The notes beneath the pieces were generated by a model. It did no database searches. It saw nothing but the letters and a program-made list of their open reading frames with translations, and had not been told where the DNA came from. A stretch of 64,000 nt of DNA from Arenicola marina. Its lineage: Eukaryota; Annelida; Polychaeta; Arenicolidae. The DNA is taken from positions 19,197,123 through 19,261,122 of the forward strand of contig OZ025263.1 of assembly GCA_964019135.1 (NCBI GenBank), written 5' to 3'. Both the position numbers and the translations under genes were made by a program. Below, piece after piece: positions 1 to 40,700 of this stretch (position 1 is its first letter; each line of letters begins with the position of its first letter).

Positions 1-690
1 CTCCTTCAAGGTATCGAAAGGTCAGTCCCATCGTGCCCTGCATCGCGGCTGTTGACTGCAGTTACGGTTCCTTTATGGCTCAATGACTCCCCTTGCAAGT
101 GCTACGTTAGTTTACACGCTCATTACTCCGCTTTAATAACAATAATAGCGTTTATTTGCTATAAGTGTTGTGTCTCCCGTATATAAACAGACGTGCACAT
201 CACAACTAGCAGCAGAAGCCCCAGCGTATATGCTAACACACTGTGTAATATAACTATGCAGGGACCCCCACACACCCTTAACAATATTGTTATAAATTTT
301 ATTATTGCTATTCCTATAATTATTACTATGACACTGGCGATACCGGAAAAACATAGTGATGCATTGCATTTGAAATCAGTCGATAATGTGCACTTCATTC
401 AGCAGAATTGCAATGTCATTTTGGTGACTATTCTTTACCGCCGTCTAAGAACGATTAGCTCCATGCATTTAAACATTACTTATGTGCAATCAGGCAATTG
501 TATCTGTATTTTCATAAGGGTAGATATTGTATCGATAGATGTGAATATATATACGGTTGTGGGCATTTTAGGGCGGATTCCGTGTCGATCTCCTTCCACA
601 AGTTGGTGGGTGCACCCTTACAATGTGCTGCCGTGATGACAAGGCATCGTGTAAGTGTCGTAATGCGCTACTATAGGGAGGGGGCGGGGG
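1..690. other. No supported gene; intergenic or intronic DNA
   Basis: AT-rich, unremarkable sequence. Open frames here (for example plus 193-636) have no recognisable motif, no codon pattern and no supporting splice sites. The first 60 bases contain a possible donor-like AAG/GTATCG and could belong to a gene outside the window, but nothing supports this. Confidence 0.5.
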
Positions 691-830: not shown

Positions 831-1130
831 AGGGTATGGTTTATCCATAGGGGGTGATGCAAAATTTAAGTGCCCTTTGTCTGGGTACGTTATGATTTGA
901 GCTGTTCGGTTAGTTTGGCTTCAAGTAAAATTTACCGGCGCAATTATCGGTGGCGGAGTAACGTCTCATAATCGACATCCGAGGCACAAAATGTTTATAA
1001 GCTAAACAGTTTAACTGTGAATATGAATAGTCATATTTACAACTCAGAAACTGTTGATTTTTCTTCGATACGATCACTTTATTGTAGGCTACATGCACCA
1101 TGCATTCTCACTTTCTTGCTCACTGATCAT

Positions 1131-1248
1131 TCAAACATTCATTCATTCATTCACACATTCATTCATTCATTCACACATTCATTCATTCATTCACACATTC
1201 ATTCATTCATTCACACATTCATTCAAACATTCACAACTCATTCAAAAT
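1131..1248. repeat. CATT-type microsatellite
   Basis: Runs of (ATTC)3-4 interrupted by CACAC, giving a compound unit of about 20 bases repeated about five times. Confidence 0.9.
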
Positions 1249-1560
1249 TACTGGGAGGACAGTTGTGTCGCCGGCTTGGAGGCGCTGTACCAAGCAGGTT
1301 TCGCAGAGCCAGGGCTGGCTTGCATCGCGCAAGGATGCATTAATTCGAGCGTGAGCCAGTCTGAAACGAGATATTGATGTGTTTATTCGTCTTCTTGCAT
1401 GCATACTAAATATGCCGTTAAAGTTGATTAATTAATTAGAAATATATAGGCCCTTATTTGTGTTCTGGTTTATCTGCCAATGACATAAAGATATGATAAA
1501 CGAGACATTTTTTACAATGAACAATGCTAACAATACTGATTAGGTGTATCAGCATCATAG

Positions 1561-1804
1561 TCATAGATAATTGACGTACTCGTCCAGGCAATTCTGGTGC
1601 CACCAGAGTTCGCAGCCATCACAGCCGAACCACACTTCTTCCTCAGCCCCGTCCTCAGACTTGCCGCACTCTGGACATCGGTCGGTCACAGGTAGCGGTG
1701 CCGGTGGCAGTACCAACGGGTCTTCTTCGTCCGTGTCGCAATCCATTTGAATATGGACTTGCGGCACTGTTAATCCGTCCCGCAAGCCATCCATGTCCCA
1801 ATAT
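1561..1804 (-). CDS. Last exon of the DDE gene: partial PHD-like zinc finger
   Basis: Begins after TGTAG at 1805 and completes an Arg codon split with exon 7. It encodes an acidic stretch (DCDTDEEDP), then C-x2-C, 14 residues, C-x2-C-x4-H-x2-C (CPEC ... CDGCELWWHQNC) and stops at TGA 1561-1563 eight codons later. This matches the first six zinc ligands of a PHD finger, with the aromatic WW just before the His as in true PHDs; the last C-x2-C pair is absent. Either the domain is truncated or a further exon is used in another isoform. Chromatin binding is only a family-based inference. Confidence 0.65.
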
Positions 1805-4800
1805 CTACACGAAGAAAGTATTAAGAAGTGATTACTTTTCGGGTACGACTTAATTTGAGCGAGGTATGTGGTAATAACATGAAGCAAATTAAGGGATTTT
1901 TTCCCGGCCCCTCCATCGAGCACGGAAATTTGCAGACCAGCTGCATCAATGTGCCACGTGCCAAAGTTATACGTACATGTACGTGTATCCCCCCCCCCCC
2001 CAAAAAAAAAACACACAAAAAAACAGAAACACCCATACACGCACGCGGAGTGAGGTGACACGATAACTTATTGACCATGCCATTTCTAAAGAATTATTTA
2101 ATGAGTGCTAGGGTGATCAAATCAGATAAATACTTGTGTATATAACGTGTATATATACGTGTGTATAACGAAAACGAAAAGTTGCATCATACCACTCCAC
2201 CCAATACCATTAAAAATTGTAGGAACAAGAACAAACCTTTTCTCCACCTTCTCGACATGTGAAACGAAAGAGGGCCACATGTTGACAGCTACCACTTTCT
2301 GCCGCCCTTCAAGAAAAAGCCGGTGGACGTCCTCCATGGATTGGGAAGTATTGTTCCGGGCCACATGACCCTTCTCCACCGCCCATACCATCTCAATCGG
2401 GTTGAGATCGCAATGGTAGGGCGGCAGCCGAAGGACTGTGTGGCCGGCCTCCTCGGCGAGGACATCCACACGGTATTTTTTGGAAGGGCGGTTCTGCTTG
2501 ACAAGCTGTGCCAGCTCGGGCTTAAGCATGTCCTCTGTTGTGACACATCCTGGAAAAAAATTAAAAATTTTATATGCCATTTAGCTGCGGAGCCAGGTTA
2601 TAAACTAAATACTACATAAATATGGAGAGTTCTACAGTCATAGGCACCTCAGTAACTACCAGTAAATGTTGGCAATGTGGTAATGCACCAAATGATATGT
2701 TTCGTAAAGACATAAATACAGCAGACAAATTGTTATTATAGCCATAGAAGGCAGTAATTTTAGTATGGAAACAGCCGCTTTCTTGGCTCCCTTGTGGTCA
2801 GACAATGAATTCAATTAAATCCTTAGTTACAAATTAACAGTTGTGAACGTTACACATTGTGCTTTGTATTTTTGCCTTGGTTAATCATTCAACATTATAT
2901 TTATATCCACTTGCCTCAAAATATTGATTTCCACACAACACCTATGAACTGTTCCTGACTAACTAGTTATGGATTGATTTCAGTTTCATCAGTTACTAGG
3001 GTTACCTCTTGCAATAAATTTAAACACTCGATAACGTACGGTACTCGTGTAACGAAGTGATAATACTGATGTAAACATGGATACTAGGTGGGTGTCTGTA
3101 CGGATATGGCAAGAAATAATAATTGTTTGTAAATTTCTGATAGAAAAATGCTACTTTACAATCTTGTAATGCCAGAGTGTAGTTTGAGAATGTTTAATAC
3201 TGGCAGTTTCTATATATATGTTGCAACCGGGGTCAACATTGGACAACCCTGGAAAATCGTAGCGAGTCCGTAGCGAGTCCAATTTTTTTGGAGATAGCCC
3301 CGGTTCTTCTCGGTATATAGACCGGGAAGGACCGGATAGGGCCGGGGTAAACCGTAGCCAACACTGGCATAGCGTGAGCTAGGCTTTACACCTAATTAAA
3401 TAATTTGATTGTCTTACCACAATGAGACAAAAAGGGCCCATATTCAGATTCTTACTACAGTTTACTCAAACAGAACTATCGCTGAGGTGCTTAGTATAGA
3501 TTCTATACCTTTCTCTGTTAACCAAGCTTTCATTTGTTCTTTTCTGCTTGATGAGGTTGGGCAGCGACATTCATCCGTCAAGACTGTGTGGTAGGGCGCA
3601 TTGTCAACGACAACTACCCCTCGCGGAGGGAGACCTGGCAGTAGTTGTTCTTTGAACCAACATTTCATTTTATTTATATGAGCGATAAATTTATAAACCA
3701 TGGCAAGTAACCGGGTTAGTGTGGGAGAGGGGTTCTAAATGTAGGATTTAATACTATAAATGTTCTACGGCATGATATCCGAGACCTGCTTAATTTTTTT
3801 TTTGAAAAATAGTCTATCAAAATCTATTTTTATTTTACAGTTATTTAGGCAATTGCAAACTTCAAATTTCTTGTACATTAATATGGGCATTTGCCACAGA
3901 TATTTTACATCGTGCGGGTCTTGTTCATTAGTATTACAGCTGCATATTTATAAAATAACCCACATAAATCATAGGTGACATAGCAAAACGTACAAATTTT
4001 ATGTGGATACACTTGTGTGTTTCTTACCTGAAGATCAATGACGCGCCCTCGATGAAGCCGTCCTTGCCACCAGCGTCCACCACAATCCACCTGAGAAAAC
4101 AAAACGGTTCCGTATGCTATCAAAAGATCATTAAGTCCGCTATATCGCGTTACATGCTGGGGTCGGATTCAGGATTTGGGAAATAGGTGGCTTCGCGAGA
4201 CTCCAGGATAGCCGACTGTGGTTGTGAGGTAACCAAATTAGTCCGAAAGAGGCCTAAATGTCCACGAGTTTTTATTTTGGCGGGGGAGGAGTCGAAAGAA
4301 TTTCCTTAGCTTGGAAGAAATGAAAATGCGCATTAAGGCGATAGCGGATCCATTTCGTAAAAAAAAAACGGTATTTACCGATATCAAGTTTTTTTCCTTG
4401 ACATTTATCATAAAGATTTGAAGTCACGATCGACCAGGCATCGTGTTGCCACAACAAACAAATTCAATTGTTCAATACTTCAAGAAAAAATTATAATATG
4501 CTAACCTTCCACCTCTCCCTGGTTCGATTTTCTTTTTACGCTTGTGTTGGTCTGACTGCCATTTTTTGGTTGGTGCATGTCCGGCATTAACCCAGGTTTC
4601 ATCCAGGTAGATGATTGGACGACCTTGGGCTTTGAAGGCCTGCAGCTGACGCAGATATTGGCGTCTCCACGTAATGATATCGCTCCTTTCACACAAGGTT
4701 CCATTTGCCTTGCTGTTGTCATGGCGATCATATCTGCATTATAAATCAGGGCTAGTGGTAAAAATTTTATCGCTGCTATTTTTTTAACGTAAACTTACTC

Positions 4801-6752
4801 GTTTATACAGTTTCGCTGCGCATTTTACACAAGATTATTTCGAGCAGAAATTAGTTTTTTTCTTTTAGTATTAAACTCAGTTTTTCATAAAGCCAGTTTT
4901 GTTGCAATTCTGAAATAAACGTTACAGTAATTTGAAGTAATTCCATAAGAATTAAAAAATATTACGCTGAAAAGGGTCTGAGTAATGTTAAGCCATATAT
5001 ACTATATCATTCCCGCCAATTTCACTGGATGATCCTTACTCGAAACCAAGGGTCTTGAGGCTCATGCGAAGAGTGGTAGCAGAAACGTTTATGTCGAACG
5101 CCACCAGTTGGGCCCGAAGCGTATACACGTTTAACACTTCTCCCTTGTTTAGTTTTTGCACGACCTGTAAGTATGAGTAAAATACATGAAACGTAAAATA
5201 TGATGTATTGGTTTCTTTGAAACTACAACCACTGACAATGTTTGTTAAATTCTTCGCAGAGTATTTATTGCATTATCGTTTCCTCGGCGCTAAATAACGT
5301 TTTAAGTAAATTTAAAAAATATATGAAAAGAGCCCAAATGTTAATTAGCGTCCTAAAGTGCATGTTATCCGCGTAATACATATTAGCATCATCGACGGTA
5401 TACATGCGCGAAAGCGATTTAACAACTGCAGTTACAAAATTAGTTAAGAGACCACGTACCTGTCTCCTAATCACATCCAGATCGAAGTTATCGACCTTGG
5501 CCGGCCGCCCCTGTTTCTTATGCTCAGTTTCTGAAAGAAAATGTGCCATCATGTGTAACTATCAAATCGTACATACTGGTATTTTATCTATATTAATATA
5601 AGTTAATAAGACGTGCGCAAGAAGCAGGTTAAGGACCTTAAATCTGTTTTTCAGTTTTGCCTTGAATCGAGCAGGGGGGGGGGGGCATAGGAAATAAACC
5701 AAACACCCACACGCAGGGACAAACGATGAAATCCTTGGTTGCGTCAATTGTCCACTCTTGTAATATTTACAACCACTCTTGGTAAGCGGGCTGCGGTTCA
5801 CTTGTGTAAATGGTCTCATGAATCTTTCTTATTAGAGACCACGAAATTTTTAAATACTATCATTTATGCTCTGGACTGAAATTATGGTTGACCCTAATAT
5901 GGAAGATCGACCTTTGAGGATGGTGTACACAGACCCTCCCATATTCCAAAATAGCCGAAAAACAACCTTGTTGGGGGCACTATTATATAAATCGCAGGGG
6001 CGGATCCAGGGGGGGGGGGGGTAGAGGGGTTGCAACCCCCCCGCCCTTGGAAACCTGAACATACACTGTTAAAGTCTGCTTCTCCGAAGTCTGTTTCGCG
6101 CTCCCCCCCCCCACCCCCGATCGCAAGTTTTAGCCAGAGAGCCCCCCCCCCGGTCCCAAGTTTTCAGAGAGCAACCCCCCCAAGCCCCCTTGGCAAATTC
6201 CTAGAAAAAAATATCCCTTCCGAGCGGATTTTGGCGGTAAGACGCGAGAGGGTTTTGGAGGTTAAAAAAGGGTTCCTATACCGCGGAACACCCCCCCCCC
6301 CCCACCAACCAAAAAAAAAATGTCAGCAATGTCTTAAAATACCCCCCTCCCCTCCCCCCCGGGTGGGTAGGGGTGCGGGGCGGGCTTTAAAAGTGGCTCC
6401 GGAAGCTCGACCAATGCCCCTCACCATATGGAGATGATATTCTAATTGTAAATATAAAATAATACAAATTTCTGCAGGATATAGGTCCCATTAGAGCCAT
6501 TAAACTGCTATTAGATCTATGTCTTTGAAGCCGGTCCTATCGGCCGAATGATATTCTGTAGGCCAAACGAGTGCACTTACCGATGGCGTTATGATGATCA
6601 TTTCCTCTCTCTCTTCGGAGTTCCCGGTCGGATATTCCGAGTGCCGCGCAAGCTCTATCGTTAACTCGATTTACTGAAATCAACAACTCCCCTCTTTTCT
6701 TTTCCTTCTCAAAATATCTTAAAACGTTTCGAATTAGCTGTTGCGCGTCCAT
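1561..6752 (-). CDS. Intron-split IS630/Tc1-type DDE transposase-like protein with C-terminal partial PHD-like finger
   Basis: Eight exons on the minus strand: 6752-6581, 5530-5460, 5164-5040, 4733-4506, 4090-4028, about 3680-3509, 2534-2237 and 1804-1561, all with GT/AG borders except the 5' edge of exon 6. Phases agree at every junction but 5/6. Exons 1-3 give N-terminal helix-turn-helix regions, including GRPAKVDNFDLDVIRR. The catalytic triad is visible: D in IYLDETWVNAGH (exon 4), D in VVVDNAPYH (exon 6), E in LPPYHCDLNPIEMVW (exon 7). Exon 5 encodes WIVVDAGGKDGFIEGASLIF. Exon 8 continues the usual acidic C-terminus, then adds a Cys-rich segment. About 450 residues. The family (DDE_3/IS630-like) normally cuts and pastes DNA. 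With eight introns and no terminal inverted repeats seen, this copy looks like a host-resident, possibly domesticated gene rather than an active element. Start chosen at the first ATG (MDAQQLIRN) preceding the helix-turn-helix. Weak point: the residues between exons 5 and 6 are missing or degenerate, so it may be a decaying gene. Confidence 0.75.
3220..3365. other. Low-information intronic stretch with a short direct repeat
   Basis: Within the 2535-3508 intron of the DDE gene. Contains GTAGCGAGTCC twice in tandem and several CCGG-flanked segments. No coding or transposon ends recognised; the rest of this intron and those at 4091-4505, 4734-5039 and 5165-5459 are plain AT-rich sequence. Confidence 0.3.
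5995..6440. mobile_element. GC-run-rich non-autonomous element in intron 1 of the DDE gene
   Basis: Starts with CAGGGGCGGATCCAGG, nearly the terminal repeat seen at 24875, followed by many G and C homopolymer runs. Contains CCTTCCGAGCGGATTTTGG (near 6218), a motif found again near 63555 and, inverted and diverged, near 20105. No second terminal repeat was found, so the right end is approximate. Confidence 0.45.
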
Positions 6753-6790
6753 TGTAGAGTGGAAAATGGCGTCTGCTCCATAATAAACAT

Positions 6791-6960
6791 TCGCCAGAGG
6801 GCGCTGTCAAGCAGCGCCATCTACCGCATCTCACTTACCTGGAGAAATTGCTCTGTCCCCTTTTTGTGGGCCTGATATTAGACTCTTCCATGTGCCTTTT
6901 TATTCCAACCAATGAAAACGCAGTAACATGACCTTCACCTTACGACGTCATAAATTCGCG
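6791..6960. promoter_or_regulatory. Candidate bidirectional promoter region
   Basis: Lies just upstream of the minus-strand DDE gene start (6752) and 450 bases before the plus-strand decarboxylase exons. It holds a perfect inverted repeat GGCGCTG-TCAAG-CAGCGCC (6800-6818) whose left arm is part of CAGAGGGCGC, resembling half of a CTCF-type site, plus a CCAATG box (about 6906) and a CRE-like ACGACGTCATAA (about 6942). Promoter function is inferred from motif density and position only. Confidence 0.35.
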
Positions 6961-7416
6961 GCTGTCAACAAACTTTCGTCTGCTATCCTTTATGCTGGAG
7001 ACTATCGTGTTGTGCCGTTATTAAACAAGATACACATAAAAGTAAGTATAAATCATAAGCGACTCGTGTGATGGAGCAAATAAATACATAAATCGTGGCT
7101 GCAAATGGTGCAGGGACAAAAATATTCACGAAAGCGAGGCTGCAGATATTAAACGCGCCGACTATAGGTAATGGCCTGCTTTTGAAAGAATTGACTAACA
7201 TATGCTTTTTACTTATTTGTCAAATTATCGATCATGGTGTACCAGTTTCTCCATATATATATGATAGTAAATTATTTGTGTGACGTTATTATCATATAAT
7301 GATGAACAATATTTCACGGAGCCATATAAATATGTCCAAAGTTGGATTATAGCATTCTAGGTGACCTTATATGACGTGACGCTGGCCTCTGTCATAATTG
7401 TATATTTGTCCAACAG

Positions 7417-7619
7417 CTTCTTTGATACAAATGAAAGCGCACGCAAGTGCCTAAAACACAGCACTGAGCAGTCTTACTTGCTATATAATGCAATTTTAGG
7501 GAACCTTACCATCCAATGCGGACGAAAGGCCGACGGTTACAAGTTCTGGATGCTGTGGAAAGCGCTTGGCCACAAAGGGATCAACGACTTGGTAGACAAG
7601 TTCTTTGACCAAGCCAGGT
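7417..7619 (+). CDS. Decarboxylase exon A
   Basis: Acceptor tentatively CCAACAG at 7416 (an alternative AG lies about 20 bases downstream). Ends GCCAG/GTAGAC, leaving two bases of an Arg codon completed by exon B. Carries the family signature IQCGRK..KFWMLWKALG and the helix GINDLVDKFFDQAR. Confidence 0.75.
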
Positions 7620-8065: not shown

Positions 8066-8341
8066 GACGCATGCTTGTGAACTCATGCTTGTAAAACTCT
8101 TCCCGCCAAATTTGTGCGGTCCCGCTCATCTAATGTTTACCTTTTGTGGAAATTATTTAAGAGGAAAAAGAAAAAGAGAAAAAGAAATGTCGGCAAGATT
8201 TTCCATACCGCCTCAACACACCATACATGTTGATATATATATATACCACATGCAAACAAATTCGAACATATTACAGTGCATACAATTAACGCAGAAGTAG
8301 GCTTAAGGTAATTGTGATGACATATGTCGTACCCTGTCAGG

Positions 8342-8393
8342 TACTTTACGGAGAAGCTGAAGGCGACAGATGGCTTCAGACTGGTGTTACCGG
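8342..8393 (+). CDS. Decarboxylase exon B
   Basis: Small exon between CCCTGTCAG and GTAAGAACAG. Completes the Arg codon from exon A and ends on a codon boundary (LVLPE), in phase with exon C. The sequence YFTEKLKATDGFRLV corresponds to the linker helix before the small C-terminal domain. Confidence 0.8.
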
Positions 8394-8843
8394 AGGTAAG
8401 AACAGTCCCATATTTTACTTCATCAAATTGGTCACGGACTGGGTGATACACAACTGTCCATCTGTCCACTCACTCAAGACTGAAGTTATTTGTAGCCGTT
8501 GTCAACACGAGGGCCTCGGGCTTGTTGTTTAAAAAAAAAAAAAAAAAAATTTAATCGCATTTTGAGCGCACGCTTCGCCAAGTGACTCTAGTGTGATCTT
8601 GGTGACGGGTGTCCAACGATGCATGTTCCGACTGCTGGTGAAGCGTGCTGTAGGCGTCACCATGACCAGACATGCGCGCTGCAACTTCCGTTCATAGACT
8701 AAATAGTCCACAACCGAAGTCGCTCGTAGCCCCGACTAGTCTCCGATGGAAATAAAGTAGGTTAGTGTTTTGGGTGACACATGTGAATATATAGGCTAAA
8801 TGGAGCCATGGGATTCCCCGAGTACAGAAATGAAGTAGGTGGA

Positions 8844-9171: not shown

Positions 9172-9261
9172 TTTGAATATGTGAACATCAGCTTCTGGTA
9201 CATCCCACCCAGTATGCGAGGTCAACCGGAAACCGCCAAATGATGGCAGCGAGTAGGCAAG
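9172..9261 (+). CDS. Decarboxylase exon C; contains the first unit of the minisatellite
   Basis: Acceptor CCGTTGTTGCAG, then FEYVNISFWYIPPSMRGQPE in phase 0. The last 36 bases (9226-9261) are already the exonic part of the 58-bp repeat unit, ending GGCAAG/GTAAGAG. In the repeat consensus this part reads ETAEWWQRVGK, as expected for the family; in this first copy the first Trp codon is TGA. A 30-codon exon. Confidence 0.8.
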
Positions 9262-12200
9262 GTAAGAGTGGTCTGATATACCACCGGAAACAGCCGAATG
9301 GAGGCAGCTGGCTAGCAAGGTAACTGTGGTCTGCTATACCACCGGAAACAGCCGAATTGTGGCAGCTAGCTGGAAATGTAAGAGTGGTCTGATATACCAT
9401 CGGAAACAGCCGAATGGTGGCAGCTGGCTAGCAGGGTAAGTGTGGTCTGATATACCACCGGAAACAGCCGAATGGTGGCAGCTGGCTGGAAATGTAAGAG
9501 TGGTCTGATATACCACCGGAAACAGCCGAATGGTGGCAGCTGGCTAGCAGGGTAAGTGTGGTCTGATATACCACCGGAAACAGCCGAATGGTGGCAGCTG
9601 GCTAGCAAGGTAAGAGTGGTCTGATATATCACCGGAAACAGCCGAATGGTGGCAGCTGGCTAGCAAAGTGTGAGTGGTCTGATATATCACCGGAAAAGCA
9701 GCTGAATGGGGGCAGCTGGCTAACAAGGTAAGAGTGGTCTGATATACCACCGGAAACAGCCGAATGGTGGCAGCGAGTAGACAAGGTAAGAGTGGTCGGA
9801 TATACCATCGGAAACAGCCGAATGGTGGCAGCTGGCTAGCAAGGTAAGAGTGGTCTGATATACCACCGGAAACAGCCGAATTATGGCAGCGAGTAGGCAA
9901 GGTAAGAGTGGTCTTATATACCACCGGAAACAGCCGAATGGTGGCAGCTGGCTAGCAACGTAAGAGTGGTCTGATATACCACCGGAAACAACCGAATGGT
10001 GGCAGCTGGCTAGCAAGGTGTGAGTGATCTGATATATCACCGGAAACAGCCGAATGGTGGCAGCGAGTAGGCAGGGTGTGAGTGCTCTGATATATCACAG
10101 GAAACAGCCGAATGGTGGCAGCGAGTAGGCAAGGTAAGAGTGGTCTGATATATCACCGGAAAAACAGCCGAATGATGGCAGCTGGCTAGCAAGGTAAGAG
10201 TGGTCTGATATACCACCGAAAACAGCCGAATGGTGGCAGCGAGTAGGCAAGGTAAGAGTGGTCTGATATACCATCGGAAACAGCCGAATGGTGGCAGCTG
10301 GCTGATAAGGTAAGAGTGGTCTGATATACCACCGGAAACAGCCGAATGATGGCAGCTGGCTAGCAAGGTAAGAGTGGTCTGATATACCACCGGAAACAGC
10401 CGAATTATGGCAGCGAGTAGGCAAGGTAAGAGTGGTCTTATATACCACCGGAAACAGCCGAATGGTGGCAGCTGGCTAGCAACGTAAGAGTGGTCTGATA
10501 TACCACCGGAAACAACCGAATGGTGGCAGCTGGCTAGCAAGGTGTGAGTGATCTGATATATCACCGGAAACAGCCGAATGGTGGCAGCGAGTAGGCAGGG
10601 TGTGAGTGCTCTGATATATCACAGGAAACAGCCGAATGGTGGCAGCGAGTAGGCAGGGTGTGAGTGCTCTGATATATCACAGGAAACAGCCGAATGGTGG
10701 CAGCGAGTAGGCAAGGTAAGAGTGGTCTGATATATCACCGGAAAAACAGCCGAATGATGGCAGCTGGCTAGCAAGGTAAGAGTGGTCAGATATACCACCC
10801 AAAACAGCCGAATGGTGGCAGCGAGTAGGCAAGGTAAGAGTGGTCTGATATACCATCGGAAACAGCCGAATGGTGGCAGCTGGCTGATAAGGTAAGAGTG
10901 GTCTGATATACCACCGGAAACAGCCGAATGATGGCAGCTGGCTAGCAAGGTAAGAGTGGTCTGATATACCACCGGCAACAGCCGAATGGTGGCAGCTGGC
11001 TAGCAAGGTAAGAGTGGTCTGATATACCACCGGCAACAGCCGAATGGTGCCAGCGAATAGGCAAAGTAAGAGTGGTCTGATATACCACCGGAAACAGCCG
11101 AATGGTGGCAGCGAGTAGACAAGGTAAGAGTGGTCTGACATACCACCGGAAACAGCCGAATGGTGGCAGCTGGCTAGCAGGGTAAGTGTGGTCTGATATA
11201 CCACCGGAAACAGCCGAATGGTGGCAGCTGGCTAGCAAAGTGTGAGTGGTCTGATATATCACCGGAAAAGCAGCTGAATGGGGGCAGCTGGCTAACAAGG
11301 TAAGAGTGGTCTGATATAACACCGGAAACAGCCGAATGGTGGCAGCGAGTAGACAAGGTAAGAGTGGTCGGATATACCATCGGAAACAGCCGAATGGTGG
11401 CAGCTGGCTAGCAAGGTAAGAGTGGTCTGATATACCACCGGAAACAGCCGAATTATGGCAGCGAGTAGGCAAGGTAAGAGTGGTCTTATATACCACCGGA
11501 AACAGCCGAATGGTGGCAGCTGGCTAGCAACGTAAGAGTGGTCTGATATACCACCGGAAATAACCGAATGGTGGCAGCTGGCTAGCAAGGTGTGAGTGAT
11601 CTGATATATCACCGGAAACAGCCGAATGGTGGCAGCGAGTAGGCAGGGTGTGAGTGCTCTGATATATCACAGGAAACAGCCGAATGGTGGCAGCGAGTAG
11701 GCAGGGTGTGAGTGCTCTGATATATCACAGGAAACAGCCGAATGGTGGCAGCGAGTAGGCAAGGTAAGAGTGGTCTGATATATCACCGGAAAAACAGCCG
11801 AATGATGGCAGCTGGCTAGCAAGGTAAGAGTGGTCTGATATACCACCGAAAACAGCCGAATGGTGGCAGCGAGTAGGCAAGGTAAGAGTGGTCTGATATA
11901 CCATCGGAAACAGCCGAATGGTGGCAGCTGGCTGATAAGGTAAGAGTGGTCTGATATACCACCGGAAACAGCCGAATGATGGCAGCTGGCTAGCAAGGTA
12001 AGAGTGGTCTGATATACCACCGGAAACAGCCGAATTATGGCAGCGAGTAGGCAAGGTAAGAGTGGTCTTATATACCACCGGAAACAGCCGAATGGTGGCA
12101 GCTGGCTAGCAACGTAAGAGTGGTCTGATATACCACCGGAAACAACCGAATGGTGGCAGCTGGCTAGCAAGGTGTGAGTGATCTGATATATCACCGGAAA

Positions 12201-15200
12201 CAGCCGAATGGTGGCAGCGAGTAGGCAGGGTGTGAGTGCTCTGATATATCACAGGAAACAGCCGAATGGTGGCAGCGAGTAGGCAGGGTGTGAGTGCTCT
12301 GATATATCACAGGAAACAGCCGAATGGTGGCAGCGAGTAGGCAAGGTAAGAGTGGTCTGATATATCACCGGAAAAACAGCCGAATGATGGCAGCTGGCTA
12401 GCAAGGTAAGAGTGGTCAGATATACCACCCAAAACAGCCGAATGGTGGCAGCGAGTAGGCAAGGTAAGAGTGGTCTGATATACCATCGGAAACAGCCGAA
12501 TGGTGGCAGCTGGCTGATAAGGTAAGAGTGGTCTGATATACCACCGGAAACAGCCGAATGATGGCAGCTGGCTAGCAAGGTAAGAGTGGTCTGATATACC
12601 ACCGGCAACAGCCGAATGGTGGCAGCTGGCTAGCAAGGTAAGAGTGGTCTGATATACCACCGGCAACAGCCGAATGGTGCCAGCGAATAGGCAAAGTAAG
12701 AGTGGTCTGATATACCACCGGAAACAGCCGAATGGTGGCAGCGAGTAGACAAGGTAAGAGTGGTCTGACATACCACCGGAAACAGCCGAATGGTGGCAGC
12801 TGGCTAGCAGGGTAAGTGTGGTCTGATATACCACCGGAAACAGCCGAATGGTGGTAGCTGGCTAGCAAAGTGTGAGTGGTCTGATATATCTCCGGAAAAG
12901 CAGCTGAATGGGGGCAGCTGGCTAACAAGGTAAGAGTGGTCTGATATACCACCGGAAACAGCCGAATGGTGGCAGCGAGTAGACAAGGTAAGAGTGGTCG
13001 GATATACCATCGGAAACAGCCGAATGGTGGCAGCTGGCTAGCAAGGTAAGAGTGGTCTGATATACCACCGGAAACACCCGAATTATGGCAGCGAGTAGGC
13101 AAGGTAAGAGTGGTCTTATATACCACCGGAAACAGCCGAATGGTGGCAGCTGGCTAGCAACGTAAGAGTGGTCTGATATACCACCGGAAACAACCGAATG
13201 GTGGCAGCTGGCTAGCAAGGTGTGAGTGATCTGATATATCACCGGAAACAGCCGAATGGTGGCAGCGAGTAGGCAGGGTGTGAGTGCTCTGATATATCAC
13301 AGGAAACAGCCGAATGGTGGCAGCGAGTAGGCAGGGTGTGAGTGCTCTGATATATCACAGGAAACAGCCGAATGGTGGCAGCGAGTAGGCAAGGTAAGAG
13401 TGGTCTGATATATCACCGGAAAAACAGCCGAATGATGGCAGCTGGCTAGCAAGGTAAGAGTGGTCTGATATACCACCGAAAACAGCCGAATGGTGGCAGC
13501 GAGTAGGCAAGGTAAGAGTGGTCTGATATACCATCGGAAACAGCCGAATGGTGGCAGCTGGCTGATAAGGTAAGAGTGGTCTGATATACCACCGGAAACA
13601 GCCGAATGATGGCAGCTGGCTAGCAAGGTAAGAGTGGTCTGATATACCACCGGAAGCAGCCGAATTATGGCAGCGAGTAGGCAAGGTAAGAGTGGTCTTA
13701 TATACCACCGGAAACAGCCGAATGGTGGCAGCTGGCTAGCAACGTAAGAGTGGTCTGATATACCACCGGAAACAACCGAATGGTGGCAGCTGGCTAGCAA
13801 GGTGTGAGTGATCTGATATATCACCGGAAACAGCCGAATGGTGGCAGCGAGTAGGCAGGGTGTGAGTGCTCTGATATATCACAGGAAACAGCCGAATGGT
13901 GGCAGCGAGTAGGCAGGGTGTGAGTGCTCTGATATATCACAGGAAACAGCCGAATGGTGGCAGCGAGTAGGCAAGGTAAGAGTGGTCTGATATATCACCG
14001 GAAAAACAGCCGAATGATGGCAGCTGGCTAGCAAGGTAAGAGTGGTCTGATATACCACCGAAAACAGCCGAATGGTGGCAGCGAGTAGGCAAGGTAAGAG
14101 TGGTCTGATATACCATCGGAAACAGCCGAATGGTGGCAGCTGGCTGATAAGGTAAGAGTGGTCTGATATACCACCGGAAACAGCCGAATGATGGCAGCTG
14201 GCTAGCAAGGTAAGAGTGGTCTGATATACCACCGGCAACAGCCGAATGGTGGCAGCTGGCTAGCAAGGTAAGAGTGGTCTGATATACCACCGGCAACAGC
14301 CGAATGGTGCCAGCGAATAGGCAAAGTAAGAGTGGTCTGATATACCACCGGAAACAGCCGAATGGTGGCAGCTGGCTAGCCAAGTCACAGTGGTCTCATA
14401 TAATAGTAAGAGTGGTCTGATATGCCACCGGAAACAGTGGCATGGCGGCAGCTGGCTGACAAGGTAAGATTGGTCTGATATACCACCGACAACAGCCGAA
14501 TGGTGGCAGCGAGTAGGCAAGGTAAGAGTGGTCTGATATACCATCAGAAACAGCCGAATGGTGGCAGCTGGTCAGCAAGGTAAGAGTGGTCTAATATACC
14601 ACCGGAAACAGCCGAATTGTGGCAGCTGGCTAGCAAGGTAAGAGTGGTCTGCTATACCACCGGAAACAGCCGAATGGTGGCAGCTGGCTAGCAACGTAAG
14701 AGTGGTCTGATATACCACCGGAAACAGCCGAATGGTGGTAGCTGGCTAGCAAGGTGTGAGTGGTCTGATATATCACCGGAAACAGCCGAATGGTGGCAGC
14801 GAGTAGGCAAGGTAAGGGTGGTCTTATATACCACCGGAAACAGCCGAATGGTGGCAGCTGGCTAGCAACGTAAGACTGGTCTGATATACCACCGGAAACA
14901 GCCGAATGGTGGCAGCGAGTAGGCAAGGTAAGAGTGGTCTTATATACCACCGGAAACAGCCGAATGGTGGCAGCTGGCTAGCAAGGTAAGAGTGGTCTGA
15001 TATACCACCGGAAACAGCCGAATTGTGGCTGCGAGTAGGCAAGGTAAGAGTGGTCTTATATACCACCGGAAACAGCCGAATGGTGGCAGCTGGCTAGCAA
15101 CGTAAGAGTGGTCTGATATACCACCGGAAACAACCGAATGGTGGCAGCTGGCTAGCAAGGTAAGGGTGGTCTGATATACCACCGGAAACAGCCGAATGGT

Positions 15201-15343
15201 GGCAGCTGGCTAGCAAGGTAAGAGTGGTCTGATATACCACCGGCAACAGCCGAATGGTGCCAGCGAATAGGCAAAGTAAGAGTGGTCTGATATACCACCG
15301 GAAACAGCCGAATTGTGGCAGCGAGTAGGCAAGGTAAGAGTCC
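9226..15343 (+). repeat. 58-bp minisatellite spanning an exon-intron junction, about 105 copies
   Basis: The unit runs from CCGGAAACAGCCGAATGGTG through GGCAAG/GTAAGAGTGGTCTGATATACCA. The first part equals the 3' end of the decarboxylase exon C and the second the start of its intron, so nearly every unit carries a consensus 5' splice site (AAG/GTAAGA). Main variants are GCGAGTAGGCAAG and GCTGGCTAGCAAG before the donor, and GTGTGAG or GTAAGAG after it. A higher-order period of about 1,630 bp repeats three times (blocks starting near 10037, 11667 and 13297) with almost no differences, showing recent block amplification. Long open frames on the minus strand are by-products of the repeat. Confidence 0.95.
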
Positions 15344-15680
15344 TGCACGGATATGTTGTTTGTGTTTTCCGCAGTGAGTTGTCTGACATTTGAACTACAG
15401 CTTTGGAGTCATCTTGTTGTCTAAACTATGAGTTTGAAGTGAAATGAAAGAAATATAATATGATACGGATTTGGAAAAAAAATTGCTGCCTATCAAGTTA
15501 AAGGACGATATTTCTAAATTGAGACCCTATAGCAATGCATTAGTAAGTATAAAGGCTAACATTGTTCGTATATACAACAGTAATCCGATAGGTTTTAATA
15601 ATATGTACAACTGTTATATATTGATTTTCTACACTACAATCATTGATCCAATCGAATGTAGTCGTGCAAATAATTTGACC
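15344..15680. other. No supported gene downstream of the 58-bp array
   Basis: The intron-like sequence continues. A possible acceptor TGTTTTCCGCAG (about 15395) is followed by a sequence with immediate stops that does not look like the next decarboxylase exon. I saw no match to the family's conserved C-terminal end up to 22 kb. Confidence 0.4.
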
Positions 15681-16156
15681 TATCAGTTTAGTTTATTGTT
15701 CTAACTAGACTGGTGGCTTCAATCCTCTAGTTTATAATTCAACCTAGACTGGTGGTTTCAATCCTCTGGTTTATCTTACTAACTGGACTGATAGCTTCAA
15801 TCCTCTAGCTTATTGTTCTACCTAGACTGGTGGTAAATTTCAATCATCTGGTTTATCTTACTAACTAGACCGGTGGCTTTAATCCTCTTGTTTATCGTGC
15901 TACTTAAACTGGTGGCTTCAATCCTCTATTTTATGGTTTTAACTAGACTAGTGGCTTCAATCCTCTAGTTTATCGCACTATCTAGACTGGTGACTTCAAT
16001 CCTCTAGTTTATCGTTCTGACTACACTTGTGACTTCAATCCTCTAGTTTATCGTTCTAACTACACTGGCGGCTTCAATCCTCTAGTTTATCGCACTATCT
16101 AGACTGGTGGCTTTAATCCTCTAGTTTATCGTTCTAACTAGACTGGTGGCTTCAAC
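15680..16156. repeat. 39-bp minisatellite, about 12 copies
   Basis: Imperfect tandem copies of CTAGACTGGTGGCTTCAATC followed by CTCTAGTTTATCGTTCTAA. Unlike the 58-bp and 51-bp arrays it carries no splice-donor motif. Confidence 0.9.
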
Positions 16157-16159
16157 AAA

Positions 16160-17690
16160 GGATGGAAAGCCAATTGAGCTTTATCGTTTTATACAATATA
16201 AACGACGCTCGACGCTGATTGGTTGACAATTCCCAAACCTTGAAGTTGATTGAAACTTTTGAACATGCGCTAAGCTTACAATGCGTGGAAAACCGGCCCT
16301 CCAACTGCAGAGTTGCTCGAAAACTTGATTTCTTGCAATGAACTTTACAACGTATTGCATCGTGTGACAATGTCATTACGGGGATTGCCAAGTCGAAAGG
16401 CATGGCCATCGTGATCCGGAGGCAGAAACTATGGCAAGCCGAAACGTTATCTATATATACATGTATTACGAACTTCTGACAATACTATTACCGCGGGACG
16501 TATTCGTAAGAAGGTATTACACAAATTCCGACTTTCATTTGCTTGGTTTTTCTAATATAAATTATAGTGTTAGTTGTATATTCAGGACGCTTTACCACTG
16601 TTGGTCATATCGCGTAAATGGGAGAAGGAAGGGAGAGTGAAGCCGGTTCTAGGACCACTCCCCCAGCCCCCGGACAACAATTTTGACTCCTACTTGTGAC
16701 GTCAAAGCGCACTCGGCTATCTTCGGTGCGTGGTCGGGAAAGTCCGTCATGGCTGACACAAAAATTGATATTGCGACCCTATGTCGGCGAGTTTTTGTTA
16801 AAACACCTATCTCATCCGATTTTTGTAGCTCTAATGCCTAGCCTTTTACGAAAATGACCCCCTCTGAATTTTCACGCACTTTAAGCCGGATAATAGAATT
16901 TCTTAGGATTTGCATATTTTGTAATATGCTTTGCACACTTGTGTAAATCCTTAAGACTGCGAAGTGAGAGGTTTTTCTCTCAATAGATCGGCCGTTCATA
17001 CCTCTCTGAGCAATTGCGCATGCCTTAAAGTAGGTTACGCAGTGCATAAGCCATTTTCACGTTCCGCCGCCATATTGGATGTCGCCACCTAGCGAGTAAA
17101 CGGGGGACTACCAGAGGGGAACGGGCTGGTTGCCGCTTCGCCTCTCAACCTTGTGTTCACTGTAAACCACCGAATCCCTGGGCCGAAAACTACTACCTTA
17201 AGTTCCCGTCGACCGACACGGCAGACTCGCGGCTATGTTTGGAGAAAACAACAAAACACCTGGTAAGGGTGAAAATGGGGTTCATTAATAAAGGTAATGG
17301 CCAGCCGGCAGCGGTACGCGCGTGCGCAACCTGAACATTGGCATCGCGCAGAGAGCTGAGACCTAACGCGTGTGTTAGCACCCAAGGTGGGGCAGCAGTC
17401 ACCACCCACACGCGTAATACAAAGTGATGTACGAATAAAAAGAAACTTAGACCATAAGGCAACTCGGCGGCGATGGGGATGGACGGTGGGAAAACGAGTG
17501 AAATGAGACTGCCGGCTTGGATTATAAAATGCATTAAACTTGTGACTGACAGCTATTTGGGTCACAGGTAAACGGCTTAGTAAGCGGTAAAGTTTGCGTT
17601 CGCCGATGGTGCGGGCTGCGGCAGGTTGTAGTTATTTCAGGACCAGTGTCAAGCCTGGTGAGGACAGGAGAGGGGGATTCCGGGGAGTGG
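16160..17690. other. No supported gene; one repeat fragment and a possible YY1-type start
   Basis: GGTCATATCGCG ... GAAGGAAGGGAGAGTG at about 16603-16640 repeats almost exactly at 27407-27443, so both are pieces of one dispersed repeat. On the minus strand CCAATATGGCGGCGGAACG (about 17079-17061) looks like a YY1-type translation initiator, but the frame closes after 12 codons and no following exon is evident. Confidence 0.35.
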
Positions 17691-21613: not shown

Positions 21614-22250
21614 TTTAGGCCGCTTTTGTGGAAGGCTGAATTGGACCCATAGACATCGCGGGACAACGGACGCCATGGGGCGGGATTAAACAGGCCCCAG
21701 ATGTACGCCATGGAGCGGGATTAAACAGGCCCCAGATGTACGCCATGGGGCGGGATTAAACAGGCCCCAGATATACGCCATGGGGCGGGATTAAACAGGC
21801 CCCAGATGTACGCCATGGAGCGGGATTAAACAGGCCCCAGATGTACGCCATGGGGCGGGATTAAACAGGCCCCAGATATACGCCATGGGGCGGGATTAAA
21901 CAGGCCCCAGATATACGCCATGGGGCGGGATTAAACAGGCCCCAGATGTACGCCATGGGGCGGGATTAAACAGGCCCCAGATGTACGCCATGGGGCGGGA
22001 TTAAACAGGCCCCAGATGTACGCCATGGGGCGGGATTAAACAGGCCCCAGATGTACGCCATGGGGCGGGATTAAACGGGCCCCAGATGTATGCCATGGGG
22101 CGGGATTAAACAGCCATCCCCCCCCCCCAGATGTACGAATGGGGCGGGATTAAACAGGCCCCAGATGTACGCCATGAGGCGGGATTAAGCAGGCCCCAGA
22201 TGTACGCCATGGGGCGGGATTAAACAGACCCCAGATGTACGGCATGGGAA
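21614..22250 (-). repeat. SINE copy whose body has expanded into a 35-bp minisatellite (about 16 units)
   Basis: The left end (21614-21670) is the SINE 3' end: reverse complement GCGGCCTAAAC, as in the copies at 8.84, 22.9 and 62.8 kb. From about 21673 to 22245 the unit GGGGCGGGATTAAACAGGCC/CCAGATGTACGCCAT repeats about 16 times. The same sequence occurs once, diverged, in the other SINE copies (near 9015 and 62854), so the array grew from inside the SINE. One unit near 22115 carries an inserted C run. Confidence 0.8.
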
Positions 22251-25700: not shown

Positions 25701-28700
25701 TTGCACAACTTTTTCTTCTAGCAAATGGTAGTATTTTATATGTTTTAATAAATATATCACATCTGGAATGGAGTTTTTCCATTTACAAGCATAAATATAA
25801 TTCTTAACAATAATATATATCTGGTTGACCAGTATCTTGTTTTGTCCGTTTTCTACCTGTAGAAAATACTACTAATAATATACTATATTATATATATTAT
25901 ATAACCTATAAACAGCCAAACAATATCAAACCAAAATATACACGCAAACGACCTTGATTATGTGTCAGGTAAAAATCAATTAAATATCATCAATCAAAAA
26001 ACCCAAAATTATCCACGATGCTAGCCTTAAAGTACACAATTGACATTGGCCTCCACATTCCATGCACATGTCAAACATGGACCGCGACAGCTATTTATGG
26101 AAAATCCGACTGTGACTTTTGACAAAACGATCGTAGAGTCAACAATGGACACTATAAACAACGAAAATTTACACAAATAAACACTGGAACCCCCTTCTTG
26201 ACCCCTAATATTTAAACAGACCACATGTGCCATTGGTCTATTGCATGATTATATCTAAAGCCGTTTAGGTTATTCTGGGCAGTAACGGGTGTTAGAATTG
26301 TTATAATTCATGCGATAATGAATTCCTCTACCAACCCTCAGCGTCAATGGTAGCAGCATCAATCCTGGCGTCAGCGCTGCTCAGCAGGGCAGCTGTAATC
26401 TGCTGAGAAGTTCGCTCTTCCAACAACGACAAGGTGAAGGTCACGTGGATCGGGGTGTCAGGGAGAGATCGCGCGGTGCGCATGGCTCTCGCCACTCGCG
26501 TGGCATCAACATCCGAGGACCTAGAGCCAGGCATAAGTGACAGTAATTCTGACAACTTGGTCAATATACTGACGGGTATCCAGTGCTGTAGGATATCGCG
26601 TGCGGATATCCGGGATTGAGTCGTATTGTAGTGACAAAGGAAGAAGTCACAGGTTTATTGTAATGTGTCGAAGGCCAGTGATCATGATGGTGTCAGTCCG
26701 CGATTGCTGCTTGAAACCAGCTTTTTAATATGTGAACCTCGAAATTGTTTCACGTTTTGCTTGAAACGTGTAAGATGCCTCTCTTGTGGAAGCAGGCGAA
26801 CGTTATCCCTATATACACAAAAGGTAGCCGTAATGGGGTCCCACAAGGATCAGTCCTAGGTCCCATGTTGGTTTTAATCTATATAAATGATATTGTGGAT
26901 GGTTTACAGTCGAATATACGAATCTTTGCTGATTGACACGACTGTATATGTAATTATAGATGATGCTGACGAGACTATTGGAGCTGATATGTTAACCCAA
27001 GACCTAGGGCGTATGGAAACGTGGGCATCAGATTGGTTTATTACGTTTAGTGTCCCCAACACAAAATCTATGCTGACGTATAACAAACATAGACGCGATG
27101 TTCTAGCGTTGCATATGGGTAATGAAACTTTGAACAGCGTCATTGAACACAAACACCTCGATGTCACCTTAAGCTCAAGAGTAACTTGGACGACCCATAT
27201 GAATGAAATGTATTTGAAAGGTAATTGAAGGGTAGATATGTTGGCAAGGGTGCGTTTTAAACTCAATATGGGTGTATTAGACTTGATGTATAAAACGTTT
27301 GTACTCCCAACTATGGAATATGTATGCGTCGTGTGGGATGGCTGCACCCAAGCGGACGCTGATAAATTAGATTGGTTGGTTATTCAGGACCCTTTAACCA
27401 CTTTTGGTCATATCGCGTCAATGGCAGAAGGAAGGGAGAGTGGAGCCATGCCTCCGGGGGTGTTATATAATGACCTACTCGTAATATTCGAGTAGTACCC
27501 CTGTGATCTTCAGTATTCATTAACCAATGACCATCGTTCTTCATTACCACGTGATCCCTAGACAAGCCTGTATATAAGACTATGCAACCTGTGTGCCGGC
27601 CTTCTTCAGACAGCTACCAACCAAGCAAGACACAAGATGTATTATTGAACTGGAATTAAAAGAACTCTGTTTAGTATGTCTCTGTCTTTAAGCACACGAC
27701 ACAACATGGTGGCAGCGGTTCAAGAAGAATGAGACCTACCAAGAGACAGAAAGGAACAATGTAGCAAATACAAGACAAGACAAACAGAAGAAAGATATTC
27801 CAAGGAGAACACGTGTCACCGCCGTGAGTACTGACCAGCATGTTATTCCATAGAGCTCATTGTACACGTGTCATTAACTATCACAATGGAGGCACCCAAA
27901 ATAAACTGGGAAGCCAGTGACAGAGCTCAGGAATGTTCAAGGTTCAGGCAAAAATGCGAACTGATGTTTAGCAGCGTTCATAAATCTGCGACCACTGAAT
28001 CTAAAGTTGCCTTCATATTATTGTGGTCAGGAGACGAAGGAATTAAGATTTCTTAACCTAACAGCAGACGAGCGTAAGGACCCGGAAAAAGTGTTTGAAG
28101 GACTGAAGAAACACTTAGAGCCAGTATCATGTTTCCGTGTGTATCGTTACCAGCTCCAATGCATGCGTCAAGGAACATTACCAGTAGATGATTTTGTGAA
28201 AGAAATGAGAATAGTGGCTGGAAAATGCATGTTCCACAATGACGCTATCAAAGAAAACAGAATATTGGATCAATTGGTTTGGGATTGTAATAGTGTTACA
28301 TCTCAGAAACAGCTAATTGGCAAAGAAGAACTCTCTTTACAAGCAGCTATTGACCTCATCAGGACAGAAGAAGCTACGAAGCGACAAATGGAGTGTTTGA
28401 TGGAATCAAACAGCCAGCTCAACAGCGTAACCAGAAACAGCAGTTCCAAGGTATGTGGGAAATGTGGCACCAAACACCAACTGTATCCCCGCACTGCGTG
28501 TCCAGCCTTCGGAACCGTATGCAACAAATGCAGGAAGCGCAACCACTGGGCATCAGTTTGTAAATCTTCGGGGACCACGACTTATAATCGCGGTAAGCCA
28601 TTTAGCAGGCAAGACCGATCTTTGTCACGTGGCAGAAGATATAGGAGCAATAACGGCCCGAAACGATATGTTCACAACGTTGACTATGATACACCATGTC

Positions 28701-37700: not shown

Positions 37701-40700
37701 GAGATACGTGCCTGCACTAATTGCATAGCTTAGGACAACATAGGACCAGTTGACTCACGTATGCAGGTGGTTCCGTCCGGCTGAAGCTTATAACCGTCCG
37801 TGCAGTCGCATTTGTAGGCACCGTGGGTATTTTCGCACGTGCCGTGGATGTCGTCACAGAAGATCGTGGTCGCACACTCGTCCACGTCTCATTGAAAGTA
37901 AAGTATAAAACCGTAACACAACTATAAAAGGAAGAGCATATATTGGAACATATGACAAGTTCCTCTTTGATAATCGACTGAGAGAAATAAATACCTGAAA
38001 CGGTTGTCATTACTTATTGCGTAGGAGGTTACCTTCACAAGTTTGTCCGTCGGTTGCCATGGTGAATCCACGGGGACAGAAGCACTGGGCGCTGGTTGCG
38101 TTACATCCGTGGCTACAGGTCAAGTCCGCGCCCTCGCAAGGCGTCCTGGGGTTGCTGGACCGGTCTGACAGGACGAGGGAACCATGGCCACTTTAAGGCA
38201 TCTATTACAACAGCATCAGTGTGATGTAAAGCCGTCTCTGATTGGCTGGGTTAATAATCGAGCCAGTTTATCACTGCTTTCTATTTGCTTAACTCTGTGG
38301 CCAGCCCCAATTTATAAATTTACGAAATGCGACCATTCCCAATAAGTCTAATGTCCTAAATATGTAACCCACGACCGTATTTCTAACTGTGCCCTCTCCT
38401 CTCACTCGCTGTATTCACTCACCGTGTTCACACACCCCATCGGCTGTCAGCGTGTAGCCGTCCAGACACTCACCGTATTCGCACGCCCCATTGGCTGTCA
38501 GCGTGTAGCCGTCCAGACACTCACCGTATTCACACGCCCCATTGGCTGTCAGCGTGTAGCCGTCCAGACACAAACCGTTTTCACATGCCCCATTGGCTGT
38601 CAGCGTGTAGCCGTCCAGAAACTCACCGTATTCACACGCCCTGTTGGCTGTCAGCTAGTAGCCGTCCAGACACTCACCGTATTCACACGCCCCATTGGCT
38701 GTCAGCGTGCAGACGTCCAGACACTCACCGTATTCACACGCCCCATTGGCTCTCAGCGTGCAGACGTCCAGATACTCACCGTATTCACACGCCCCATTGG
38801 CTGTCAGCGTGTAGCCGTTCAGACACCCACCGTTTTCACACGCCCCATTGGCTGTCAGCGTGTAGCCGTCCAGACACTCACCGTATTCTGAGGCCCCATT
38901 AGCTGTCAGAGTGTAGCCGTCCAGACACTCACCGTATTCACACGCCCCATTGGCTCTCAGCGTGTAGCCGTCCAGATACTCACCGTATTCACACGCCCCA
39001 TTGGATGTCAGTGTAGCCGCCCAGACACGCACCGTATTCACACGCCCCATTGGCTGTCAGCGCGTAGCCGTCCAGACACTCACCGTATTCACACGCCCCA
39101 TCGGCTGTCAGCTAGTAGCCGTCCAGACACTCACCGTATTCACACGCCCCATTGGCTGTCAGCGTGCAGACGTCCAGACACTCACCGTTTTCAGACGCCC
39201 CATTGGCTCTCAGCGTGCAGACGTCCAGATACTCACCGTATTCACACGCCCCATTGGCTGTCAGCTTGCAGCCGTCCAGACACTCACCGTATTCACACGC
39301 CCCATTGGCTCTCAGGGTGCAGACGTCCAGACACTCACCGTATTCACAGGCCCCGTTGGCTGTCAGCTTGCTGCCGTCCAGACACCGTATTCACACGCCC
39401 CATCGGCTGTCAGCGTGTAGCCGTCCAGACACTCACCGTATTCACACGCCCCATTGGCTGTCAGCGTGTAGCCGTCCAGACACTCACCGTATTCACAGGC
39501 CCCGTTGGCTGTCAGCTTGCAGCCGTCCAGACACCGTATTCACACGCCCCATCGGCTGTCAGCGTGTAGCCGTCCAGACACTTACCGTATTCACAGGCCC
39601 CGTTGGCTGTCAGCTTGCAGCCGTCCAGACACCGTATTCACGCGCCCCATTGGCTGTCAGCGTGTAGCCGTCCAGACACTCACCGTATTCACACGCCCCA
39701 TCGGCTGTCAGTGTGTAGCCGTCCAGACACTCACACTCGTACGTGCCCTCTATCAATAACCTCTATGTGTGGCTTAAGTCTAACGAATATATTAAATATA
39801 TACATGTATTAAAACAAATACCCTCTAAATTAAGCGACCGTATTGTTAATAATTTGGACTGCTTTTTTTCAGTCAAAATGTGTTTATTATTGAAGAAAAA
39901 AGTTATTTTGCGATAAATTGAACATACTTTTTGGAACAGCTTCTTTTGTAAAATATCATTCATTGACTTTTGTTAATGTTTGTGACTGCATGTGCAGGTA
40001 AAATTGACTATATTGATATAAATTAGAGAAAACCCATATGAAAATTAAGGTTGTATAATATATTAATTTGTGCATATACCAATGCTATAAATTCATTTAT
40101 CTTTAGCGATGCTGAAGAAATGTAAAACAAAAATTCTACATTTTGGAAGAACAATTTTAAGGTCAGCCTTAAAACTTTTCACCATATCTTTTGTTTACGC
40201 AATACAAATGTTTTTATGGTGAGCAGTGGTTGGTGAAGAAGGAGGATGCCTCGGTTAAGCTAGGGTCCGCCTTCATCCCCTTTTTGAGAGAGAGGATGTC
40301 CTTTTTCAATGAAAATTATATATCTTAGATATGAACATAATGAATCCGCCAAGTGATTTCAAGTGATCACTCCTCTATCAGAGGTCGAAGCCCACACGCA
40401 TGCTTTTTAAATATACCCCAAAGTGGAGCCTCGCCGCCCCCCCCCCCCCCCACCCCCCTTGGATCCATTCCCTTGACCAGAGCCAAAAGAGGTAAAGGTA
40501 AATGTAAAGGTAAAGGTAAGGTAAGGTAAGGTAAGTTAAGGTAAGTTAAGGTAAGGTAAGGTGCATAACGTGATACACTGAGTAACAGATGAACAGATTG
40601 ACAATGCTTATTGCAGTAAAAATGTTCAAACTACTCACACGGTGGCGTCACTGGCATCATCCGTTTCATGGTCAGGGTGGGCGTTCCTAGACTTGGAGGT

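Follow-up and report, generated by a model that had tools for sequence, protein, structure and literature searches.

What becomes of a gene when the end of one of its exons, together with the splice donor, is repeated about a hundred times at the start of the following intron? The question is raised by a 64,000-nucleotide stretch of the Arenicola marina genome (C18:19197123-19261122, referred to as the window), in which a long 58-bp minisatellite begins inside an exon, here called exon C. To place this array, we searched the whole assembly (867 Mb, 762 contigs) for related copies and compared the locus with known systems. The features are collected in Table 1.

Table 1. Features of the decarboxylase copies and exon-edge arrays; positions are those of the window unless preceded by C18.
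Feature	Position	Strand	Remarks
Decarboxylase exon, 3' end	1..20	+	reads LLQGIER; donor GTCAGT
Decarboxylase exon, PLP-lysine region	572..650	+	ADSVSISFHKLVGAPLQCAAVMTRHR; donor GTAAGT; E 6.3e-6
Insert of 6.3 kb	861..7164		replaces 475 bp of P1, nearly all of exon LLKECN..YDLG (the loop exon)
Decarboxylase exon	7500..7617	+	NLTIQCGRKADGYKFWMLWKALGHKGINDLVDKFFDQA; E 6.4e-14; ends placed by reading AG, GT
Short decarboxylase exon	8341..8395	+	YFTEKLKATDGFRLVLPE; donor GTAAGA; E 0.21 alone, weak; collinear, present in P1 and P2
Exon C	9172..9261	+	FEYVNISFWYIPPSMRGQPETAK-stop-WQRVGK, in-frame TGA; E 1.4e-9 for the part before the stop; donor at 9262
58-bp minisatellite, 105 copies	9225..15341	+	28-unit (1630 bp) higher-order repeat; TRF, alignment
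3' flank, from last-exon deletion junction	15342..16624	+	97.9% identity to P1 (19120492 onward)
Second exon-edge array, outside this gene	38416..39734	-	~26 copies of 51-bp unit; EGF-like exon end and GTGAGTG
P1, exon and array, 54 units	C18:19116068-19119299	+	~90 kb from window array
P2, exon and array, 13 units	C18:19176282-19177069	-	~29 kb from window array
Paralog intron without array	C18:7.10 Mb		391 bp
Paralog intron without array	C18:12.19 Mb		323 bp

An exon-edge minisatellite in a decarboxylase family

Wrap-around alignment resolved the array into 105 copies, the final one partial, and Tandem Repeats Finder reported it as two rows, 9225-14402 and 14406-15341. Start-to-start spacing is 58 bp in 94 of 104 intervals, 60 bp in nine and 80 bp in one. 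Each unit is composed of 37 bp resembling the exon 3' end and 21 bp resembling the intron start, donor included, and the copy alignment bears out the claim of the preliminary description that the unit is the end of exon C plus its splice donor, with the exonic part one base longer than the 36 given there. The same description counted about 105 copies of AAG/GTAAGA; the copy number holds, but the exact 9-mer (AAGGTAAGA) is found in 61 of 105 units, the remainder carrying ten other 9-mers. Two unit types can be distinguished by a short patch. The exon-like QRVGK type, which accounts for 44 of the 105 units, corresponds to the previously given consensus ETAEWWQRVGK, although the commonest unit peptide is ETAEWWQLASK. 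With 105 units, a chance origin of the array as such was rejected.

Comparison with GAD and CSAD proteins, which had been proposed as a check on exon C, gave a match to the CSAD/GADL1/GAD family. Entering the stop codon discussed below as tryptophan, E values against CSAD and GADL1 were 3e-4 to 4e-4; with the sequence unaltered, profiles from four solved group II PLP decarboxylases of the CSAD/GADL1/GAD group (PDB 6enz, 2jis, 6zek, 2okj) matched the part before the stop at E 1.4e-9. By sequence similarity exon C is thus a member of this family. The three neighbouring worm copies read I-S-F where the solved relatives have W-N-P before H-K, and the copy in the window is broken, whereas its neighbour P1 matches GADL1 over query residues 7-488.

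The best explanation, to which we give a probability of about 0.85, is a minisatellite of the type called mirage, created by tandem duplication over the 3' edge of an exon and amplified in the next intron of an annelid CSAD/GADL1-like gene. Mirage minisatellites have been described in amphioxus in Adh3, the globins BflGb6 and BflGb9, troponin C and imperfect PGBD5 duplications (PMC3087553, PMC3902484); the alcohol dehydrogenase precedent mentioned in the preliminary description is not the only one. Here as there, the unit spans the exon-intron edge (in three gene copies of the worm), the splice signal is repeated and the boundary copies stand apart, having escaped homogenisation. Copy number varies between alleles in the amphioxus cases cited and between gene copies of one assembly in the worm; the BflGb6 haplotypes carry 6 and 3 units (PMC3087553), compared with 105, 54 and 13 here. 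The worm differs further in being an annelid and in having its longest array in a pseudogene. The reported range of mirages is cephalochordate, which is a range and not a definition, and the worm array lies outside it.

Two other systems are related in part. The minisatellites in intron 1 of an earthworm metallothionein also lie in an annelid gene, with 10-19 kb of repetitive intron region, but the cited part of that report does not mention an exon edge in the unit, and it describes fourth-exon duplications as absent from the final transcript (PMC12783039). In the Rogers model (cited in PMC3087553), introns are gained through tandem duplication of an exon containing AG/GT, and a potato RdRp gene has been presented as a case of intron gain by tandem duplication (PMC4974935). 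Exon sequence and donor, from which that model starts, are both present in the worm repeats, but the locus shows no new intron or exon. Among the literature matches listed, which cover titles and abstract beginnings and the subscription literature thinly, no exon-edge array outside amphioxus was reported. The worm array shares with amphioxus mirages the structural features compared above, with the phylum and the unit number appearing new among those matches; barring an earlier case, mirages and the intron-gain model built on them would extend from amphioxus to another phylum.

The preliminary description had assigned the DNA to a lancelet. Contig C762 (15,942 bp) is the mitochondrial genome and has on one strand the order cox1-N-cox2-D-atp8-Y-G-cox3-Q-nad6-cob-W-atp6-R-[gap]-H-nad5-F-E-P-T-nad4L-nad4-C-M-[srRNA]-V-[lrRNA]-L-A-S-L-nad1-I-K-nad3-S-nad2, as read from tRNA calls and open frames named by eye, with rRNA places inferred from gaps and three surplus tRNA calls out of 25 (at 383, 3346 and 13224) left out. 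All six gene blocks conserved across the annelids compared in the cited part of PMC2667193 are present, indicating that the animal is an annelid and that the lancelet assignment was mistaken. A lancelet-derived GFP query found no match, which is weak evidence taken alone. A sea urchin affiliation was also considered and rejected, as COX1 shared 71% identity with an urchin-like query, which we judged too low.

As to the cause of the array, we lean slightly towards an ordinary intronic minisatellite whose seed straddled the exon edge by chance, with no part played by the splice site; this is a statement on cause, leaves the structure untouched and can stand alongside the mirage reading. Tandem arrays are common locally (38 rows in 171 kb at periods of 20-250 and at least three copies). 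P1 alone holds five arrays and about 24 inner exon edges within 15.6 kb, for which 0.5 edge-straddling arrays are expected and one is seen, so chance placement suffices for some arrays of this kind. A general enrichment of donors in local arrays was not supported: five rows hold a near-consensus donor where shuffled units would give 1.49, and the 58-bp family accounts for four of these rows. The counterweight is that two independent families straddle a donor within the 64-kb window, and two is few. The second of these, which ends an exon called EGF-like from translation alone, also contains shortened and TAG-bearing copies. There, GTGAGTG occurs within the exon and next at the donor 51 bp on, a distance equal to the unit length, and the last unit likewise ends in GTGAGTG. 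Slippage between an exon-internal and a true donor motif would make such an array; a similar start for the 58-bp array, from GAGGTC in the exon and GAGTGGTC in the intron, is our guess.

Splicing and history of the neighbouring copies

The combination of exon and array was found at at least two further places in the genome, P1 and P2 being among the best candidates. Matches around both span CSAD residue 18 to the end, and the matched pieces are free of stops. With its exons joined by eye, P1 matches PF00282 (E 9.1e-79) and GADL1 (E 1.3e-147), giving a domain and full-length match where the window copy yields pieces only, and the phases of its last six exon joins agree as read. Both copies look intact and are presumably active. 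The activity of P2 is less sure, as it has cysteine at a site occupied by tryptophan in P1 and in the four solved relatives.

These are the copies to which the idea of competing 5' splice sites, put forward in the preliminary description for the window copy, can be applied, with 54 and 13 units. The donor GT is preserved in 53 of 54 P1 units and 13 of 13 P2 units, as it is in all 105 of the window. An open join between exon C and exon D is obtained from the first donor only (1 of 54 in P1, 1 of 13 in P2). Its pairing with U1 was calculated as -9.5 kcal/mol, a value equalled or exceeded, the first donor included, by 46 of 54 donors in P1, 10 of 13 in P2 and 67 of 105 in the window. Predicted accessibility did not mark the first donor either, which ranked 11 of 54, 10 of 13 and 45 of 105, respectively. 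Since neither property singles it out, donor sequence does not explain the choice. Because that join alone keeps the frame, the spliceosome would normally use the first, exon-attached donor in P1 and P2 and remove the rest of the array as intron. If the two genes make protein, the simplest inference is that the first donor is chosen for its position beside the non-repeated exon sequence. The array itself would have no function and be tolerated.

Alternatively, the array might be used, with internal donors yielding alternative or unproductive transcripts that regulate P1 and P2. The many donors whose U1 pairing matches or exceeds that of the first speak for this, as does the lack of an open frame from any internal donor, any use of which would lower protein output. 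Moreover, within the unit, intronic bases vary less than exonic ones in P1 (0.038 v 0.107) and P2 (0.017 v 0.060), but not in the pseudogene array of the window (0.091 v 0.079), values that exclude the unit-type patch and the first and last copies. These figures, however, rest on few independent mutations because of block amplification, and we give them no weight. In amphioxus, both the data on Adh3 and RT-PCR of globins point to regular splicing (PMC3087553). We consider a regulatory use unlikely and retain the reading in which the array is passively removed.

Another possibility is that the three neighbouring copies are in part one locus, represented by misplaced haplotypes of a heterozygous animal. 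Pieces outside the array are about 92-99% identical, in line with this idea, but orientation differs among the copies, as do their exon content, the insert and the 5' truncation, and we consider this reading unlikely, slightly more so than a regulatory use. P1 and P2 have the same exon C sequence, from which the window copy departs at 2 of 90 bases. Two distant paralogs on C18 have an array-free intron at the equivalent place (before VAP). With an array in all three neighbours and none in the distant paralogs, the array probably arose after the distant split and before that of the neighbours. It would have been born in the common ancestor of the three, its length then diverging in each copy through unequal exchange (28-unit higher-order repeat).

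Units are homogenised within each array. When lags of 1-59 units were compared in the window array, 28 was the best; shifted by 1630 bp, the array is 94.65% identical to itself over 4505 aligned bases. An identical twin exists in the same array for 80 of 103 inner window units, and in P1 for 8 of 103 (insertions ignored). A unit with a 22-bp insert has one occurrence in the window array and three in P1, which suggests that this variant predates the split of the two copies. C at unit position 10 occurs in the first copy of all three arrays and in none of the other 169 copies, which indicates that the exon end takes no part in the homogenisation of the array.

Decay of the window copy

The first copy of the window array, which is the end of exon C itself, reads ETAK-stop-WQRVGK, with a TGA in frame six codons before the donor that the earlier reading of the exon end had overlooked. 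A transcript containing the whole of exon C would meet this TGA whichever array donor was used. This codon is TGA in 13 of 105 units in the window, 5 of 54 in P1 and 2 of 13 in P2, and the TGA of exon C might have come from the array by conversion.

Other parts of the gene are missing. Homology to P1 begins at window position -4080, and in the 5' region from there on no match to CSAD residues 18-184 was found. A profile search of both window strands gave no credible match to the catalytic-loop exon or the C-terminal exon (best E 1.6 and 0.86). The insert that replaces the loop exon is absent from the corresponding place in P1 and P2. Compared with P1, about 1.2 kb including the last exon has been deleted, and the 3' edge of the array is the deletion junction. 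The window copy is a pseudogene: its 5' exons are missing, one exon is swapped for an insert, exon C contains a TGA and the last exon has been deleted. It does not fit the view of a functional gene with about a hundred donors lined up at the start of the intron, as exons have been lost at both ends and inside and a stop precedes the first donor. That it is nevertheless a working gene of unusual exon structure is highly improbable: several of its exons are still open and collinear, but the full set of open exons of a functional decarboxylase gene is not there, the 5', catalytic-loop and last exons of P1 and P2 not being found in addition to the stop in exon C.

Minus-strand frames in the insert resemble transposase pieces by eye; an inverted repeat of at least 20 bp was not found in it. 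Elsewhere in the window, an 898-aa open frame (27965-30661, plus strand) resembles by eye an LTR-retrotransposon polyprotein.

To our knowledge, the choice of the spliceosome among identical neighbouring donors has mostly been studied with artificial constructs. Here one genome contains the homologous intron in several states: array-free, carrying 13 or 54 units in genes that look intact, and carrying 105 in a dead one; a single donor would give protein. Speculatively, genomes rich in minisatellites could give rise to mirages as a general by-product, so that these would not be peculiar to lancelets, and this family would be a natural dose series (0, 0, 13, 54 and 105 units in one homologous intron). 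One donor among as many as 54, the majority of equal strength, would then be picked by position, and growth of the array would push the gene towards decay; it is the dead copy that has the longest array, whose 3' edge is the deletion junction.

Several further repeats accompany the locus. A 39-bp minisatellite (15689-16155 in the window) occurs in the 3' flank of each of the three neighbouring copies. The unit of a 35-bp array at 21670-22248 recurs at C18:19126785 and, on the opposite strand, at 19169322. A Ser/Thr-rich stop-to-stop frame of 7207 aa (40631-62254, minus strand) includes a stretch, 41835-61771, in which a unit of 63 bp (21 aa) is repeated about 316 times, and arrays of similar units lie at C18:19135049-19160893.
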